A stretch of 36,460 nucleotides of DNA from a virus. Positions 775 through 36,460 of this stretch are shown one piece after another. The stretch is taken from the IMG/VR virus record IMGVR_UViG_3300044627_004287, positions 1-36,460 of that record. One strand, given 5' to 3'. Numbering within the stretch: the stretch's first letter is position 1; every line of letters begins with the position of its first letter. Below the pieces are notes generated by a model. That model made no database searches and had not been told where the DNA came from. It saw nothing but the letters and a program-made list of their open reading frames with translations. The position numbers and the translations under genes are program-made.

Positions 775-798
775 AATTATTCCCCTTGCTGATTGTTA
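772..798. repeat. Start-junction direct repeat, copy 1
   Basis: On the minus strand this segment carries AACAATCAGCAAGGGG, AATAATT and then ATG. It matches 1131-1156 except for two substitutions and a one-base indel. The two copies bracket the gene at 777-1133. Here the duplicated leader is read as the end of that gene (NNQQGE and stop). Confidence 0.75.
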
Positions 799-1133: not shown

Positions 1134-1156
1134 ATTATTCCCCTTGTTAATTGTTA
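1131..1156. repeat. Start-junction direct repeat, copy 2
   Basis: This is the partner of 772-798. It contains the end of the gene at 1147-1320 and the ribosome site and ATG of the gene at 777-1133. Confidence 0.75.
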
Positions 1157-1320
1157 AAAATATTTTCTATTTCCCTACCATAAACATCTTCGGCAAAAAC
1201 AAAGCCTTGCTTTTCTTGTTCTTTTAGTAGAACTGTTCGCAAGCTTTCCATAGATGTTATATACGGAGTTTGTGGAAAATTGTCGTTAGCTGGGCGGTAA
1301 AAGTGGGTTGTGTTGTTCAT
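1147..1320 (-). CDS. Small unknown protein (57 aa)
   Basis: An open frame from ATG 1320 to TAA 1147, starting MNNTTHFYRPANDNFPQTPY and ending EIENIFNN. It fills the space between 1133 and 1322 exactly, with one base between it and the upstream stop, which is how the neighbouring real genes are packed. It is acidic to neutral and has no membrane segment. No family is recognised. Confidence 0.65.
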   Translation of the reverse strand: MNNTTHFYRPANDNFPQTPYITSMESLRTVLLKEQEKQGFVFAEDVYGREIENIFNN

Positions 1321-25089: not shown

Positions 25090-25521
25090 CTATCGAGCAT
25101 ATTTCAAAGCATTGATTTCAATTATAGCAGAAATGAGGTTATGTAATTTTTGAACAAAGTCGCCTTCATTACATTTTACACGAAGCTCGCCAGTTAACAC
25201 CTCTAATTCAGTGTCGTTTTTGTAGCGAAGCTCGCCCTTTAATACCTTTAGACCGTAAGCATTTATTATCTTATCAGCCTGTGCAGGCACTGTCCACGGT
25301 AAAACCTCCCCGTCATCAGAGATAGTTATGACACCCTTTTCCTGTTTAACATAAACTGTTATATACTCATTCTTCCTATATTGATTATGAGTGATTAAAT
25401 AAGGGGTAGTTAATTCAAACCAACCCTTATTCCCCTTTTTAACGCTACTATTTTCCCTAAGCCATAGGAAATAATCATCACGGAATAATTCATTAAACAT
25501 TTTGTGTTTTTTACTAAGCAT
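25090..25521 (-). CDS. DUF1828-like protein (143 aa)
   Basis: Residues 30-75 (WFELTTPYLITHNQYRKNEY, then ITVYVKQEKGVITISDDGEV) match the DUF1828 pattern of a TP....N.YI.IYV start followed by an L/ISDDGE turn. DUF1828 proteins occur in mobile elements and are unsolved, although some neighbours suggest roles in conflict with the host. The start overlaps the lysozyme stop by eight bases, so the two are coupled. Confidence 0.6.
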   Translation of the reverse strand: MLSKKHKMFNELFRDDYFLWLRENSSVKKGNKGWFELTTPYLITHNQYRKNEYITVYVKQEKGVITISDDGEVLPWTVPAQADKIINAYGLKVLKGELRYKNDTELEVLTGELRVKCNEGDFVQKLHNLISAIIEINALKYAR

Positions 25522-25945
25522 AAAACAATTTTGCCTCCGTAGCTCTTCTTCTTTCTAAACCTTTTAACTTTCTACCACCTGCAAAAACCCATCTCATAAA
25601 CTCACTTGTTAAATCTTCAGCCCCGTCTCTATTAAGCCTTGTTCTAAGGGTAGATGCTTGCAAACGCCCACTACCAACATTAAAAGTAAAGGATACAAGG
25701 GCGGAAAATTGATTTTCATTTAACTCATAAGTAATTAATTTATTAACCCAATATTCTGCATGGTTTAAATCTTTTTTTAATAATTCTTCGGCTTCGGTTT
25801 TTGAAATGCCGCATGAGAAGTTTTCATGCGGCTTTACAACATGCCCATATCCAATCGTTGGTAAACCTGCCGGGCAAATGTACACCGTTTCATAAAACCC
25901 TTCAAAATGCTTAATGATTGCTAAACCCGCTTCATTTGTTTTCAT
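25514..25945 (-). CDS. Endolysin, GH24 lysozyme (143 aa)
   Basis: A T4/P22-type muramidase that cuts peptidoglycan. Glu15 lies in HFEGF and Thr30 in LPTIGYGH. The position that is Asp in T4 lysozyme is Cys24 (YICPAG), a variant seen in other phage members. FNVGSGRLQASTLRTRLN and the final GLERRRATEAKLF are typical. There is no signal peptide, so it needs a holin; a 3TM-type holin lies upstream at 26956-27381. Its ATG overlaps the stop of the ImmA-like gene by ATGA. Confidence 0.93.
   Translation of the reverse strand: MKTNEAGLAIIKHFEGFYETVYICPAGLPTIGYGHVVKPHENFSCGISKTEAEELLKKDLNHAEYWVNKLITYELNENQFSALVSFTFNVGSGRLQASTLRTRLNRDGAEDLTSEFMRWVFAGGRKLKGLERRRATEAKLFYA
25922..25945. repeat. Lysozyme-start direct repeat, intact copy
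   Basis: These 24 bases encode the first eight residues of the lysozyme (MKTNEAGL). They recur with one mismatch at 26499-26522. The copies are 577 bases apart and bracket the ImmA-like gene. Confidence 0.9.
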
Positions 25946-26469
25946 ATTATCTTATAGTTTAACTGGTTTACTTTTAATCTAACTGCAAGCGGGGACACTT
26001 TAAAATATTTGGCTACATCGTCACTATCTTTGGACACATTTTGTATATAATATTTAAAATCAGCTTTTGGCATTAGTAAATTTATAGCAAACTCATTTGC
26101 CTCAAGTTCTATTCTGTTATTATTAATAGATTTTCCAAGATAGGCGTAATCTATAAACTCCTTTGTTTCATCATCTCTATGTAAAATATAATGAGCTAAT
26201 TGGTGGGCAAGCGTAAATCTTTGCCTTGTAATATGGTGCTTAGCATTTACCTCACAAACCCAACCCAGTTCTGTTTCTTTCAATATTCCCGAAGTGTTAT
26301 CTGGCAGGGTATTGGAACAAATAATTTTTATGCCCATTAATTCCATTAAAGCCCCTATATCTAAAGGAACAGCCTTTATATTATTCTGTCTAGCGAAATT
26401 TAAAACATCTTCCGCCATTTCAAATTGCAACGGGCTTTTCTTTTTATTTTTTCTTCTTATTATTGCCAT
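25942..26469 (-). CDS. ImmA/IrrE-like protein with altered HExxH (175 aa)
   Basis: ImmA/IrrE peptidases cleave XRE-type phage repressors on induction. The fold pattern is present: VPLDIGALMELMGIKI, then FTLAHQLAHYILH (86-98) and ELEANEFAINLLMP (121-134). The zinc motif reads HQLAH (89-93), with Gln in place of the catalytic Glu, so peptidase activity is doubtful and a binding-only role is possible. It is inserted between a nuclease gene and the lysozyme, with a duplicate of the lysozyme start on its upstream side. Confidence 0.85.
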   Translation of the reverse strand: MAIIRRKNKKKSPLQFEMAEDVLNFARQNNIKAVPLDIGALMELMGIKIICSNTLPDNTSGILKETELGWVCEVNAKHHITRQRFTLAHQLAHYILHRDDETKEFIDYAYLGKSINNNRIELEANEFAINLLMPKADFKYYIQNVSKDSDDVAKYFKVSPLAVRLKVNQLNYKII

Positions 26470-26522
26470 AAATTTATTAGCTGTATTATTAAAATATTTA
26501 ATCCCGCTTCATTTGTTTTCAT
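26460..26522 (-). pseudogene. Vestigial lysozyme start (20-codon leader ORF)
   Basis: ATG at 26522 opens MKTNEAGL as in the lysozyme, then diverges (NILIIQLINLWQ) and stops at 26460, overlapping the ImmA-like start at 26469. The ATG overlaps the stop of the nuclease gene (ATGA), as the real lysozyme ATG now does with the ImmA-like stop. It looks like a scar left when the ImmA-like gene was inserted. Confidence 0.75.
26499..26522. repeat. Lysozyme-start direct repeat, vestigial copy
   Basis: Matches 25922-25945 at 23 of 24 bases, in the same orientation. The similarity stops on both sides of the 24 bases. Confidence 0.9.
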
Positions 26523-26785
26523 ACCGCCTCTTTATAATTAGATTTTAAGCATATTTCTACAAAAGCTTTGGCAGCTTCGCTGGTTTGAATAAGAATTACT
26601 TTTTTATCTTCAATCTGCTTTTCAGTTCTAGGGGTTGAGTACGCCTTACATTCTATAAAAATATCGTATTCCGGCAAATAAAAATCAAGACCTTGAGCCT
26701 TATTTTCCATTTCGTGTATAAACTTTATACCCTTATTTAACAAAACTTCTGCCACAATTCTTTCTATCGGGTCATTTATTTTCAT
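26519..26785 (-). CDS. Small PD-(D/E)xK nuclease-like protein (88 aa)
   Basis: A minimal restriction-nuclease fold: helix IERIVAEVLLNKGIKFIHE, then LDFYLPEYDIFIECKAY with Asp34 and the Glu45-x-Lys47 pair, then VILIQTSEAAKAF. Such short proteins occur as resolvase-like or repair nucleases in phages. It overlaps the downstream vestigial lysozyme start by ATGA, and its own start lies inside the end of the membrane protein gene at 26772. Confidence 0.75.
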   Translation of the reverse strand: MKINDPIERIVAEVLLNKGIKFIHEMENKAQGLDFYLPEYDIFIECKAYSTPRTEKQIEDKKVILIQTSEAAKAFVEICLKSNYKEAV

Positions 26786-26954
26786 TTTTACCGTCCTCTT
26801 TCTTCACTAAAAGATAAATTAAAAATAACGGAGGTATAATAAATATAAAATAGGAAATAAGAATAGATACGCCTATAAAAAAAACTGGAATAGTAATAAA
26901 CACCACAAGAACTATTAAAATATTAAATAAAACTTTTTTTAAAAACAACTTCAT
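26772..26954 (-). CDS. Small two-pass membrane protein (60 aa)
   Basis: The ATG at 26954 (MKLFLKKVLFNILIVLVVF) is preferred to the longer frame from 27014, because it lies one base after the holin-like stop and has AGTAGG upstream. Two hydrophobic segments follow (ILIVLVVFITIPVFFIGVSI and ISYFIFIIPPLFLIYLLV), then a charged KKEDGKNENK end. It may be an antiholin or holin partner, judged by position only. Confidence 0.62.
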   Translation of the reverse strand: MKLFLKKVLFNILIVLVVFITIPVFFIGVSILISYFIFIIPPLFLIYLLVKKEDGKNENK

Positions 26955-26955
26955 A

Positions 26956-27381
26956 TCACCTACTCCCATTAAGTTTAGCCAAGCCCCTTTGTCCAAAGTA
27001 AAAACTAAATACACCAGCTAACATTGCACTATCTTCTTCACCCCATAACTCGCCACCAGAGCCATTTAAAACTTGCCCTATTTTAATTCCAGCATAAAGA
27101 AAAAACATAAAGTAAGTAATAACAGGGCGAACACTGGTATTTAAATTTATAAAGAATTGACTAGCTTTTTCATCTCTTTTTGTTTCTGCACTTACTCTAT
27201 TATTAAAAGCTTCTGTTTCTATAGCATCTAGTTTAGCCTGATTACCTTCCCTAGTTGCTTGCATTTGCAATGCCATAACCGCAAGCTCGTGTTTCTTATC
27301 AGACCTATCTCTTATAAGTTTAAATATATCTGGCAAGGTAGAGCCAAAAAATCCAAGTAGTGAGCCAAGTAATGTTAGCAT
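26956..27381 (-). CDS. Holin, 3TM family (141 aa)
   Basis: The ATG at 27381, with GGGGG upstream, gives MLTLLGSLLGFFGSTLPDIF, then IRDRSDKKHELAVMALQMQ, a helical linker, SVRPVITYFMFFLYAGIKIG and LAGVFSFYFGQRGLAKLNG. The RP-x6-F and final FGQR are hallmarks of the 3TM holins of proteobacterial phages and gene transfer agents. It would open the inner membrane for the lysozyme encoded downstream. A longer frame to 27459 lacks a ribosome site. Confidence 0.82.
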   Translation of the reverse strand: MLTLLGSLLGFFGSTLPDIFKLIRDRSDKKHELAVMALQMQATREGNQAKLDAIETEAFNNRVSAETKRDEKASQFFINLNTSVRPVITYFMFFLYAGIKIGQVLNGSGGELWGEEDSAMLAGVFSFYFGQRGLAKLNGSR

Positions 27382-28576: not shown

Positions 28577-28717
28577 TTATTCCCTATCTTCCGTTATAGA
28601 ATAAAAAATTGGTGCAAAAATAAAAGTGAAAACAACAGCAAAATAAATATTTGCTAAAACATCAGTTGGTTGAATAATCATTAAAAGTGAAGCAATCGCT
28701 ATATGAATATACATCAT
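28577..28717 (-). CDS. Very small membrane protein (46 aa)
   Basis: ATG 28717 overlaps the upstream stop by ATGA, with GAGGGGG before it. Two short hydrophobic stretches (YIHIAIASLLMIIQ, then LANIYFAVVFTFIFAPIFY) and an acidic SITEDRE tail. Function unknown. Confidence 0.58.
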   Translation of the reverse strand: MMYIHIAIASLLMIIQPTDVLANIYFAVVFTFIFAPIFYSITEDRE

Positions 28718-29010
28718 ATTGCCCCCTCTAATATAAGTTTATAAACACCCTTTTGAGGCATTGATTTTATAGCTGATTTATCAGCCTTTGACATATTGTA
28801 TAGCTTTGTCATTATTTGCTTTCTTCCTTTCATAATTTTATAAGTTCTAAAATATGCTACCGTTACTTCATCAATATTAATTTCCCTGTTAGCCAATTCA
28901 AAAATCTTAATTAACTGATTTTCAAAAAGATTTTCAGAGTGGGCTTTCAGCTCTTTTTTTAAATTGTCTGGCACATCTGTTAAATCTACTAAATCAAAAA
29001 TATTTTTCAT
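28714..29010 (-). CDS. Conserved-looking phage protein (98 aa)
   Basis: The protein reads FDLVDLTDVPDNLKKELKAH, then ANREINIDEVTVAYFRTYKI, GRKQIMTKLYNMSKA and KGVYKLI. The acidic first helix and the INIDEVTVAYFRTY core look like a helix-rich DNA-binding protein, and the motif set recurs in phage early regions. It overlaps both neighbours by ATGA. Function unknown. Confidence 0.65.
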   Translation of the reverse strand: MKNIFDLVDLTDVPDNLKKELKAHSENLFENQLIKIFELANREINIDEVTVAYFRTYKIMKGRKQIMTKLYNMSKADKSAIKSMPQKGVYKLILEGAI

Positions 29011-29264
29011 ATCGCCCCCTCTGGTTTAATAAAGTTAGGATTAAGATTATATGTATTACAAGTATCCAATAGCTTCCTAGTCCTTTCTAATTCGCTTTTA
29101 CTATCATTTGTCATAACTATAGTGGCAAGAATTAAGGTTGATGTAAAAAACACAACAGTTAATATGCTATAAATATAATGTACTTTTTTAGCTGTTGCTT
29201 TTCGCATCTGGTTATTAAAACCAGTGCCAATATTTATTAAGTTTTCTTTTTTATCATTTGTCAT
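29007..29264 (-). CDS. Small single-pass membrane protein (85 aa)
   Basis: A basic N-terminus, one membrane segment (YIYSILTVVFFTSTLILATI), then a helical outer part (SKSELERTRKLLDTCNTYN). The start lies in a GGAGTTAAAAATGAC junction that recurs upstream of the next gene. It overlaps both neighbours. Function unknown. Confidence 0.62.
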   Translation of the reverse strand: MTNDKKENLINIGTGFNNQMRKATAKKVHYIYSILTVVFFTSTLILATIVMTNDSKSELERTRKLLDTCNTYNLNPNFIKPEGAI

Positions 29265-29637
29265 TTTTAACTCCTATGTTTTCTACATAAATTACAGGTT
29301 TATCATTGCGTTGGATTATTTTCTTTCTTTTATCTTTAACCAAACCTATCCATTGCGAAGAAGAGGCACAATTTCTTGTATACATAGCACCGTCTTGAAT
29401 ATGGTCTACATAATCACTTATAAATGCGTCCCAATCCTCGTGAATGCGGGAAAAAACTACATCTTTAGCCCGCACCTCACTTTCCTTACTCACCACCTCA
29501 ATATTAAGTGCGTCAAGTATAGCTCCAATGCCCGCCTTTTCGCACGTTGAAACGTTCAAGCTCTCGTGTTCACTATAAGCTAAATTAAAAATACTAAATA
29601 GTTTTTCAATCGCCATTTCTCTTGAGTTATTTGTCAT
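29254..29637 (-). CDS. Unknown protein between junction repeats (127 aa)
   Basis: The protein reads REMAIEKLFSIFNLAYSEHE, then KAGIGAILDALNIEVVSKES and WDAFISDYVDHIQDGAMYTR. It is helical and soluble, and no domain is recognised. It starts at GGAGGCTAAAAATGAC and ends in KNDK overlapping the next start, a junction almost identical to its own. This suggests insertion or duplication at start junctions. Confidence 0.65.
   Translation of the reverse strand: MTNNSREMAIEKLFSIFNLAYSEHESLNVSTCEKAGIGAILDALNIEVVSKESEVRAKDVVFSRIHEDWDAFISDYVDHIQDGAMYTRNCASSSQWIGLVKDKRKKIIQRNDKPVIYVENIGVKNDK
29257..29280. repeat. Start-junction repeat, copy 1
   Basis: On the minus strand: AACATAGGAGTTAAAAATGA, then CAAAT. 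Closely similar to 29630-29654 (AACATGGAGGCTAAAAATGA, then CAAAT), with a weaker third copy at 29809-29824 (GGAGGCTAAAAATGAT). Each copy ends one gene with KNDK, or a similar end, and starts the next. Confidence 0.6.
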
Positions 29638-29812
29638 TTTTAGCCTCCATGTTATTTTTTAGTTGCCCAAGATATTCTTTAACGGCAGCAAGAAATTCGT
29701 CTGCTGTAATTTTATTAGAGCTATATTCTCGCTCTATTTTAATTTTTAGTGGCGTATTTGGCAAGTTAGCAAATTTAAACACCAATTCTAAATCTTCTAT
29801 TGTATTAATCAT
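29627..29812 (-). CDS. Small helical protein (61 aa)
   Basis: The protein reads INTIEDLELVFKFANLPNTP and ITADEFLAAVKEYLGQLKNN, ending in EAKNDK. Strong ribosome site GGAGG. The layout suggests a small regulatory or adaptor protein. No family recognised. Confidence 0.6.
   Translation of the reverse strand: MINTIEDLELVFKFANLPNTPLKIKIEREYSSNKITADEFLAAVKEYLGQLKNNMEAKNDK
29630..29654. repeat. Start-junction repeat, copy 2
   Basis: Partner of 29257-29280. It contains the end of the gene at 29627 and the ribosome site and start of the gene at 29254. Confidence 0.6.
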
Positions 29813-29823
29813 TTTTAGCCTCC

Positions 29824-30027
29824 TTATTTTTTAGTGTTTTTTGCCTGCTCCTCAAGAAGGTTAAGTAAATTAACAATAAACCTCTTTTCTTGTGTAGTTG
29901 TTTGCCTTTGTATAATTTGCTGGTAGTAATCTTTTAAAACCATCTCTACGCAACCAAAATCTAAAAGCCTAGCTTTAAAATCCAACTCCCCACTTATTAA
30001 GCCTTTTGGTGTTTTATCTTTTTTCAT
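29824..30027 (-). CDS. Small unknown protein (67 aa)
   Basis: The protein reads MKKDKTPKGLISGELDFKAR, then LLDFGCVEMVLKDYYQQIIQ and FIVNLLNLLEEQAKN. Helical and soluble, with weak start signals. It lies directly below the gene controlled by the promoter at 30518-30546. Confidence 0.58.
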   Translation of the reverse strand: MKKDKTPKGLISGELDFKARLLDFGCVEMVLKDYYQQIIQRQTTTQEKRFIVNLLNLLEEQAKNTKK

Positions 30028-33160: not shown

Positions 33161-33651
33161 CCAAAATGCCTCCAATTTTCCAGCTGTTCTTTTTTCACAA
33201 AAGAGCCAACTTCACAAATAAATTTTTCTAAAAAGCAACTTGGGTTATCGGAATAAACCCCGTCACTTTCTTTATCGGCTTCATAGATATCAATAAAGGA
33301 AGCAAGCCACTTTAGCTTTTGTATTGCCTGCGTCGCATACTCTATTCGATAAATAAGATAATACCCGCCCACTTGTTTAATAAACTCTAAATTATTATTA
33401 GATAGATGTAAAATTGGGAAATAAACCTTTGTTGAAAAATAAGAAAGCTCTCCATAAAAAGTATGTAATTTTACAACCCCACCTTTATGAGGGCGAATTA
33501 TAAAATTCATATTTAAATAAAAGATTTTATCTTCTACTTTTAAATTTTCATCTTTTTCAAAAATAAAACCTCTCTTTTCACTTAAATAGTTTTTAAATTC
33601 TTCTACCGTATTTCTACAATAGTTGACATACTGTTCTTTAGTTTCGCTCAT
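33157..33651 (-). CDS. Unknown protein (164 aa)
   Basis: An N-terminal helix (EQYVNYCRNTVEEFKNYLSE) is followed by beta-rich segments (KIFYLNMNFIIRPHKGGVVK, VGGYYLIYRIEYATQAIQKL). It overlaps the exonuclease gene by 14 bases. It may be an accessory to the recombination module, by position only. Confidence 0.62.
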   Translation of the reverse strand: MSETKEQYVNYCRNTVEEFKNYLSEKRGFIFEKDENLKVEDKIFYLNMNFIIRPHKGGVVKLHTFYGELSYFSTKVYFPILHLSNNNLEFIKQVGGYYLIYRIEYATQAIQKLKWLASFIDIYEADKESDGVYSDNPSCFLEKFICEVGSFVKKEQLENWRHFG

Positions 33652-34339
33652 TTTCTTCCCTCCATTTTATAACTTCGTCCCAAAACTTAGTAGCTTCTTT
33701 TATTAAAAAAGCACAATCATCTTTAGAGCTTCTGTATTCATTACAAATACCATTAGGTTGCTCTATTAAAATTCTAAATTTATCATTCACCCCCTTTGCA
33801 TCAAAAGTTAATCTAAAAAATTTATCAGTTGGCTCGGTTTTATCAAAAAATTGGCAATATAAAACCGCCATATCTAAAGTATAAACAATCATATAGTGAA
33901 GCAACTGCCAATAATATCCAGCCCCACCATTAAACCAATAAGCATTAACTATATCTGGATTATACCAGCTTTCATAATTACTTATTTGAGAGGTTTTAAT
34001 TTCTAAAATGTAGTCCAAGCCTTTAGTTTTTTTATTAAGAACTAAGCGGTCAAGGCTGGCATAGAGAAAGGGCATTGCTTGGCTTGTAATAGTATCAACT
34101 TTTAAACAAGAAAATTCTTTAAATGTAGGGTAATATTTTTTTAGATATAAACCCGCAATTCTATCTTCTTCTTTTTTACCCTGTTCAGTGTAAATATTAC
34201 CTTTAAACTCCCCTCCCCTTCCAGTTTTTTCTAAAAACAACTGCTGGCGGCTTTTAAATTTATTAAAGCCAAGAACGGAGGCTATTTCGCTACCCCCTAT
34301 TCCCGACATTCTATCAAATGGCTTAGTTTCTACTTTCAT
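33638..34339 (-). CDS. YqaJ-type recombination exonuclease (233 aa)
   Basis: A lambda-exo-like PD-(D/E)xK nuclease. It shows RMSGIGGSEIASVLGFNKFK at the N-terminus, Asp97 in YASLDRLV, Glu113-x-Lys115 in ILEIKTS, and GYYWQLLHYM with the conserved Gln145. It would resect double-stranded ends to give single strands for the annealing protein whose stop overlaps its start (TAATG), the usual paired layout of phage recombination systems. Confidence 0.9.
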   Translation of the reverse strand: MKVETKPFDRMSGIGGSEIASVLGFNKFKSRQQLFLEKTGRGGEFKGNIYTEQGKKEEDRIAGLYLKKYYPTFKEFSCLKVDTITSQAMPFLYASLDRLVLNKKTKGLDYILEIKTSQISNYESWYNPDIVNAYWFNGGAGYYWQLLHYMIVYTLDMAVLYCQFFDKTEPTDKFFRLTFDAKGVNDKFRILIEQPNGICNEYRSSKDDCAFLIKEATKFWDEVIKWREENERN

Positions 34340-34902
34340 TATATTTTATTATAAGTGTTGTTATAAACTGGCTTTGCTTTTATTGCGTCTGGCACATTAG
34401 GTTTAGCTGGCTTTTCTTCCTCAAACTTAAAATCTTTATCATATAAGCTATTGCCAAACTGGTCGCCAAATGTTCTAAAAGCCCTTTTCATTCCATCTGA
34501 TACGCAACCCTTATAAGCAATCTCGCTAGCCTCTAAGTAAGATGTTTTTGAACTTCCGCCACAAGAGCCAACATCTTCCCTAGTGCCGAAATCTTTTACC
34601 CAAACCTTTACCACAGATGCAAATAAAACCTCGTAGTTATCTTCTAAAACAGGAAGCCCGTCTTTATAAACTTTTTGTTTATCTTTCCAAACTTGTTTTT
34701 TAGTTATAGTTCTGCCCAATTCTTTTACTTCTTTAACTTCTATACTCCAATTATCTTCACCAAATATTCTATTAGCTTGCTGAATTATAAAAAAGCTTTC
34801 AAGGTATTTTAATTTGCTTTTGCCAAATCCAGCCTCTCTTTCTGCCACATCTTCTTTTTTAATTGGCTTTTGTAATTCTATTTTGATTTTTTCTATATCC
34901 AT
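34339..34902 (-). CDS. Rad52-family single-strand annealing protein (187 aa)
   Basis: The Rad52/Rad22 core is visible: GFGKSKLKYLESFFIIQQAN, RIFGEDNWSIEVKEV, FASVVKVWVKDFGTREDVGS and YKGCVSDGMKRAFRTFGDQF, then GNSLYDKDF. The C-terminal 35 residues are a Pro/Lys linker. It is expected to form rings on single-stranded DNA and pair short homologies, with the YqaJ nuclease. It is the second gene after promoter C. Confidence 0.9.
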   Translation of the reverse strand: MDIEKIKIELQKPIKKEDVAEREAGFGKSKLKYLESFFIIQQANRIFGEDNWSIEVKEVKELGRTITKKQVWKDKQKVYKDGLPVLEDNYEVLFASVVKVWVKDFGTREDVGSCGGSSKTSYLEASEIAYKGCVSDGMKRAFRTFGDQFGNSLYDKDFKFEEEKPAKPNVPDAIKAKPVYNNTYNKI

Positions 34903-35996: not shown

Positions 35997-36460
35997 TTAC
36001 TTCCTTTCAATCCAATTTACCCAAGTTTTAACCCAATCAATTTTATAAGGGTCGCTTGGTTTTTTATCGCCCTTACCAGCCCAGTACTTATAAAAACCGT
36101 TATATTTAGCCATTAAAGCATCATCATTAACCCCGTTTCTACTTTCAAAAGTCTTAACAAAAATATCCGCAATTAGTAATTCTGGTTTAAGTTCTGCGTT
36201 TTCTTTTTTTAGCTCTTCAATTAAAAAATCGTGTAATAATATATTCTTTCTTTCTTTCTTATATTCTTTACCTTCTTTACCTTCTTCTATTTGTTTCACG
36301 TTGTTTTCATTTTGTTTTCGCGTTGTTTTCATTTTGTTTTCCTTTTTGCTTTCATCTTCTTGATAGCATTCCCAATTAACTATTGAAAAATAAGAGAATT
36401 TATTAGTCGTTTTGATTTCAATAGTGTTTTCACTTTTTAGGTAGTTTAAAATTTTATTTA
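35997..36460 (-). CDS. Replication-initiator-like protein, C-terminal part (continues from base 1 of the circle)
   Basis: This is the second part of the 225-aa frame that starts at 341. The frame is open through the terminal repeat. The C-terminal domain (residues 115-225) reads LLHDFLIEELKKENAELKPE, then LLIADIFVKTFESRNGVNDD and WAGKGDKKPSDPYKIDWVKT, a helical layout like the DnaD-like or helicase-loader-binding ends of phage initiators. An internal ATG at 36332 would give only 111 aa and lacks the HTH domain. Confidence 0.72.
   Translation of the reverse strand, partial: NKILNYLKSENTIEIKTTNKFSYFSIVNWECYQEDESKKENKMKTTRKQNENNVKQIEEGKEGKEYKKERKNILLHDFLIEELKKENAELKPELLIADIFVKTFESRNGVNDDALMAKYNGFYKYWAGKGDKKPSDPYKIDWVKTWVNWIERK
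36334..36460. repeat. Terminal direct repeat, right copy
   Basis: Identical to 1-127; see that entry. Removing one copy gives the 36,333-base circle. Confidence 0.95.

Follow-up and report, generated by a model that had tools for sequence, protein, structure and literature searches.

Organization of the lysozyme region

The window analysed here, that is, the whole stretch of 36,460 nucleotides of viral DNA (positions 1-36,460 of IMGVR_UViG_3300044627_004287), carries the genes and repeats listed in Table 1, which are described throughout on the minus strand. On this strand a holin-like gene is followed by the gene for a probable membrane protein, a small nuclease-like gene, an ImmA-like gene and a phage lysozyme gene. 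The ImmA-like protein matches the family profile PF06114 (E 3.3e-21), with HQLAH (26191-26205) in the place of the catalytic HExxH, so that the sequence does not have the expected motif. HExxH is kept in five of the six phage homologues compared and HMLGH is found in one; proteolysis by the ImmA-like protein is therefore doubtful, judging from its sequence. The Rad52-like protein named by the original prediction, made earlier for this DNA, is indeed encoded by the phage, together with a YqaJ-type exonuclease.

Table 1. Position of the genes, repeats and gene boundaries in the window
Feature	Position	Strand	Basis
Boundary repeat TAACAATCAGCAAGGGGAATAAT, after gene 777-1133	776..798	-	Repeat comparison
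Boundary repeat TAACAATTAACAAGGGGAATAAT, before gene 777-1133	1134..1156	-	G001 has same boundary around different gene
Phage lysozyme (PF00959)	25514..25945	-	Profile match
Repeat copy 2, intact lysozyme gene start (TATGAAAACAAATGAAGCGGGTTTA)	25922..25946	-	Repeat comparison
ImmA/IrrE-like gene (Peptidase_M78), HQLAH replaces HExxH	25942..26469	-	Profile match; motif comparison
20-aa leader ORF MKTNEAGLNILIIQLINLWQ*, nuclease stop through ImmA start; proposed translational bridge	26460..26522	-	ORF reading
Repeat copy 1, vestigial lysozyme start (TATGAAAACAAATGAAGCGGGATTA)	26499..26523	-	Repeat comparison; 29/30 from ATG to L108 lysozyme
Small nuclease-like gene, missing from 32-kb relative contig	26519..26785	-	Annotation, comparison
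Gene for 60-aa probable membrane protein, between holin and nuclease	26772..26954	-	ORF reading
Holin-like gene (phrog_6637, function unassigned there)	26956..27381	-	"Holin" inferred from place before lysozyme
Boundary repeat AGAGGGGGCAATATGA, right of extra 98-aa gene	28714..28729	-	Comparison with L108
98-aa gene, absent from L108	28714..29010	-	Flanking orthologues adjacent in L108
Boundary repeat AGAGGGGGCGATATGA, left of extra 98-aa gene	29007..29022	-	Single copy in L108
Boundary TAAAAATGACAAAT, single-copy (empty) site of L108 pentapeptide-repeat gene junction	29256..29269	-	Comparison with L108
Boundary GGAGGCTAAAAATGACAAAT (KNDK*/MTN type junction)	29629..29648	-	Boundary comparison
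Boundary GGAGGCTAAAAATGA	29809..29823	-	Boundary comparison
YqaJ-type exonuclease	33638..34339	-	Profile match
Rad52-family single-strand annealing protein	34339..34902	-	PF04098, E 4.6e-29

The nearest relative found, and the only one close enough for a gene-by-gene comparison, is a 32-kb contig (L108, the same as G001). Its identity with the window is about 50% for the terminase, 71% for the lysozyme, 66% for the holin and 60% for the DUF1828 protein.

The lysozyme start is duplicated around the ImmA-like gene

The first 24 bases of the lysozyme gene (25922-25945) recur, with 23 of 24 identical, at 26499-26522, the two copies of this direct repeat being placed 577 bases apart from start to start. 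The match grows by one base to 25 (24/25). The number of matches expected at three mismatches or fewer, as calculated from shuffles, is 0.00, and in the 12.5-kb region of the minus strand that was scanned this is the strongest interspersed direct repeat with copies up to 2.5 kb apart; the sole higher scorer is a tandem of 22-bp period. This tandem (GAAAACAAAATGAAAACAACG, at about 36294-36341) is placed at the start of the gene 35997-36332. Both copies of the lysozyme start lie in ATGA overlaps: the nuclease ORF stops on the TGA within the ATGA at 26519-26522 and the ImmA-like ORF stops within the ATGA at 25942-25945, a direct repeat of a gene boundary being thus present on both sides of the ImmA-like gene. 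The original prediction had described the repeat with its single mismatch and the two overlaps, as well as the upstream copy as the leftover of a lysozyme start, and all of these stand.

The unit between the repeats contains the ImmA-like gene only, with no transposase, integrase, homing endonuclease or intron seen in it, which speaks against insertion of a transposon or an intron. One contig only crosses the junction, and no second contig spanning it was found in the contig searches, as might be the case for an assembly artefact at the short repeat. However, the two ends of the record share a 127-bp repeat, as is usual for an assembly overlap, which points to a k-mer much longer than 25 and makes misassembly across a 25-bp repeat unlikely, and on either side of the repeat the frames are intact. 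Such an artefact is thus considered extremely improbable.

A closer look at the upstream copy shows that it opens a leader frame of 21 codons including the stop, whose end overshoots the ATG of the ImmA-like gene by 5 bases. The leader ATG is preceded by GAGGCGG, and the ATG of the ImmA-like gene has no Shine-Dalgarno sequence. Of the first 30 bases of the leader, 29 are identical to the lysozyme gene of the relative, versus 25 for the lysozyme of its own genome, the two lysozyme genes themselves matching at 24 of these positions. Past base 24 the leader reads like the gene of the relative (GGATTAAATATT), unlike the lysozyme of the window (GGTTTAGCAATC). This suggests a second allele rather than a fresh duplication, an argument that stands on about six AT-rich positions, and the simple duplication of the current start that had been proposed does not agree with it. 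The leader appears to be what is left of a lysozyme allele different from the one now in the genome, or of the ancestral allele. No relative was found for its 3' half.

The resemblance of the leader and the intact gene to two different alleles would also be expected if a tandem, or nearby second, lysozyme gene had once been present and its first copy had been deleted nearly completely when the ImmA-like gene, or another gene, replaced it. This origin is improbable, since among 31 lysozyme loci no second lysozyme start is found within 4 kb; the relative and every other lysozyme locus looked at show one such start each, and so a single copy of the boundary. Alternatively, whatever its origin, the leader could be an upstream ORF under selection, maintained for the coupling or regulation of ImmA translation. 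It begins at the stop of the nuclease gene, behind GAGGCGG, and ends just past an ATG devoid of Shine-Dalgarno sequence, which might indicate such a role. Nevertheless, a leader retained by distant relatives for its function as a peptide, named in the original prediction as evidence against a vestige, was looked for in the 31 lysozyme loci and not found. The leader is not conserved in the nearest relative either, its 3' half is without a relative, and it is not improbable for a short, AT-rich frame to stop close to the start that follows, so that a selected role seems quite unlikely.

Gene order between holin and lysozyme

The genes of the relative are arranged as holin, 50-aa ORF, 78-aa ORF, DUF4326 gene and lysozyme. 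The 78-aa ORF represents the C-terminal half of an ImmA-like protein (46% identity) and does not include the active-site motif. No ImmA found is closer to that of the window: its match is 32/68, against no more than 23/68 in other phages. Viral and bacterial contigs, searched for relatives of the ImmA-like gene, gave only this remnant and one weak bacterial match. The presence of HQLAH in the window and of a half-gene in the relative suggests either decay or a non-proteolytic role of the ImmA-like protein. The nuclease gene was not found in the 32-kb contig. A lysozyme profile search of bacterial genomes gave no matches and, therefore, no host was assigned.

A total of 89 holin-lysozyme pairs was retrieved, many of them from redundant contigs. 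Holin and lysozyme are adjacent in 72 of these pairs, 68 of them showing the 4-base ATGA overlap, which indicates that the holin is the old neighbour of the lysozyme, and inserts of more than 100 bases in the 17 other pairs indicate that the gap between them repeatedly accepts genes. In the loci L152-L230 and L113-L124 this junction holds varied inserts of 105-1507 bases and is an insertion hotspot. Boundary repeats at the other holin-lysozyme inserts are mostly absent, with only the 9-base CAAAAATGA or GGCAAATGA in L199-201 and L213; this scarcity of long repeats counts against the history proposed below.

Other duplicated boundaries in the lineage

Two other genes of the lineage could be compared with an empty site, in which a single boundary copy is seen without the extra gene. 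The 98-aa gene of the window stands between two AGAGGGGGCRATATGA copies, and the empty site in the relative has one copy with matching flanks. The relative, in turn, has a 267-aa pentapeptide-repeat gene between two TTAAAAATGACAAAT junction copies, while the window has the orthologues of its neighbours side by side, with one copy. The gene 29824-30027 and its counterpart in the relative (L108 884-1132) are alike at 44 of 45 bases at their start (MKKDKTPKGLISGEL), their bodies being unrelated. A 23-bp boundary (TAACAATYARCAAGGGGAATAAT) flanks the gene 777-1133; in the relative, where its counterparts are placed at L111 12984-13006 and 13341-13363, a different gene follows the orthologue of window 1147-1320. 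The replacement of one gene by another, by way of nearly identical boundaries, likely explains why different genes lie inside. In the relative, the 19 bases that close the holin gene are repeated after the 50-aa ORF.

Recurring gene-end sequences were also observed at L111 16289-17771, with NLTTNQ or TLTTNQ at or near the ends of three consecutive genes. In an unrelated phage contig (L067 117-1271), a tandem run of small genes shares the boundary GAAGGAGGGTGAGTGATG.

Gene starts of the window that are at most two genes apart reach a score of 14 or more in 5/81 pairs, versus 1/780 for farther pairs (p = 4e-5; p 3e-4 without the lysozyme pair), the value of 5/81 relying on hand-picked starts, with that of the holin set 4 bases off. 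With an automatic gene caller the difference for window starts is not significant (1/140 near versus 1/1168 far, p 0.2), an enrichment blurred because small genes are missed and starts are shifted. The same caller gave 2/140 versus 0/1168 for window ends (p 0.01), 3/86 versus 3/616 for the starts of the relative (p 0.03) and 5/86 versus 1/616 for its ends (p 1e-4). In 60 unrelated loci the same trend was seen, although such matches are rarer (9/2016 near pairs, 0.4%, versus 4/5688 distant ones).

Proposed history of the junction

The duplication of the MKTNEAGL start is a scar left by recombination. According to the original prediction, nuclease and lysozyme were adjacent first and the ImmA unit entered the lysozyme start, with duplication of this start; the start of the intact gene would then have drifted later. 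The 25-base repeat at both ends of the 577-base unit fits such an entry, as do the two genes with one boundary copy per side and a single copy in the empty site. However, the usual neighbour of the lysozyme is the holin (68/89), an ImmA remnant is already present between holin and lysozyme in the relative, whose 32-kb contig has no nuclease, and the leader is nearer to the lysozyme of this relative than to that of its own genome. Moreover, the nuclease-lysozyme junction without the ImmA-like gene, for which a search had been suggested, was found neither in viral contigs and phage records nor in the lysozyme loci, one close relative being known. Entry of the ImmA-like gene into a nuclease-lysozyme junction is thus possible but rather unlikely, and less favoured than the arrival of a block carrying the nuclease.

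The ImmA remnant in the relative, the lack of the nuclease in its contig and the allele of the leader make the nuclease block the likelier newcomer and this history the most economical one. In the ancestor of the clade the lysozyme would have followed the holin directly via the ATGA overlap, at a junction that repeatedly takes accessory genes. The incoming block would have ended in the nuclease and the first 30 bases or so of a lysozyme gene, its hypothetical donor being a phage with the nuclease directly before a lysozyme. The block would have been joined some 30 bases ahead of the start of the ImmA-like gene, in a recipient that already had this gene before its own lysozyme, with the left exchange taking place in the holin or other shared sequence. 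The annealing recombinase of the phage (Rad52 homologue and YqaJ exonuclease) is the likely enzyme. The ImmA genes of the window and of the relative could also be separate acquisitions.

After the exchange, ribosomes that have completed the nuclease would begin again at the stub ATG, terminate 5 bases beyond the ImmA ATG and begin once more at this second ATG. In this way the stub would relay translation into the ImmA-like gene, because the latter has no Shine-Dalgarno sequence of its own; many genes of this phage have none, which makes its absence here weak evidence for coupling. Taken together, the account comprising the scar, a nuclease and stub block joined before a resident ImmA-lysozyme pair, the recombinase and the translational bridge is put forward with moderate confidence. 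Boundary sharing of the same kind would account for at least four other genes in the phage and its relative. The exchanged junction carries a ribosome-binding site and a stop/start overlap, so that the products would be translatable and would survive selection. That such near-identical junctions may work in this lineage as interchangeable docking sites, at which the recombinase of the phage adds, removes or swaps single early genes, with products that stay translatable because the translation signal is itself the joint, is a tentative idea that we regard as doubtful.

Comparison with known systems

The entry of single accessory genes without breakage of the operon is debated, with random illegitimate joining on one side and homologous exchange at conserved boundaries on the other. 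Here one phage pair gives several scars, two of them with filled and empty sites, in which the boundary is a translation signal. Boundary-guided exchange becomes thereby testable with a phage encoding its own annealing recombinase.

The scar at the lysozyme start is a further case of a published kind, with a gene start duplicated rather than a gene end. In the mycobacteriophage Island3, gene 68 is extra and shares with gene 67 a 60-bp sequence at the 3' end, of which Brujita has a single recombinant copy (Pope et al. 2011, PMC3029335). As in the window, an extra gene is flanked by the duplicated boundary of its neighbour; however, a gene end is duplicated there and the empty site is known, whereas here the start of the lysozyme is duplicated, the two copies look like different alleles and no empty nuclease-lysozyme site was found. 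In LRRHood a 1.35-kb insertion lies between 29-bp direct repeats present once in Cali (PMC3029335). In both cases direct repeats of 25-30 bp enclose accessory DNA and relatives have one copy, but the LRRHood insertion has four genes including a repressor, while in the window there is one ImmA-like gene and no intact ImmA-less reference was found.

Short conserved boundary sequences have been proposed as joints of phage mosaicism, as cited in PMC3029335. The proposal, as cited there, shares with our observations recombination at short conserved gene-boundary sequences; here, in contrast, the boundaries consist of Shine-Dalgarno sequences and stop/start overlaps that recur in the early operon of one lineage. 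Finally, Rad52-like phage recombinases recombine short, diverged sequences, as shown experimentally in lambda (De Paepe et al. 2014, PMC3945230). In our phage only the genes and the scars are observed. What the two systems share is a Rad52-family annealing protein encoded by a phage and paired with an exonuclease, and exchange at short, diverged sequence.
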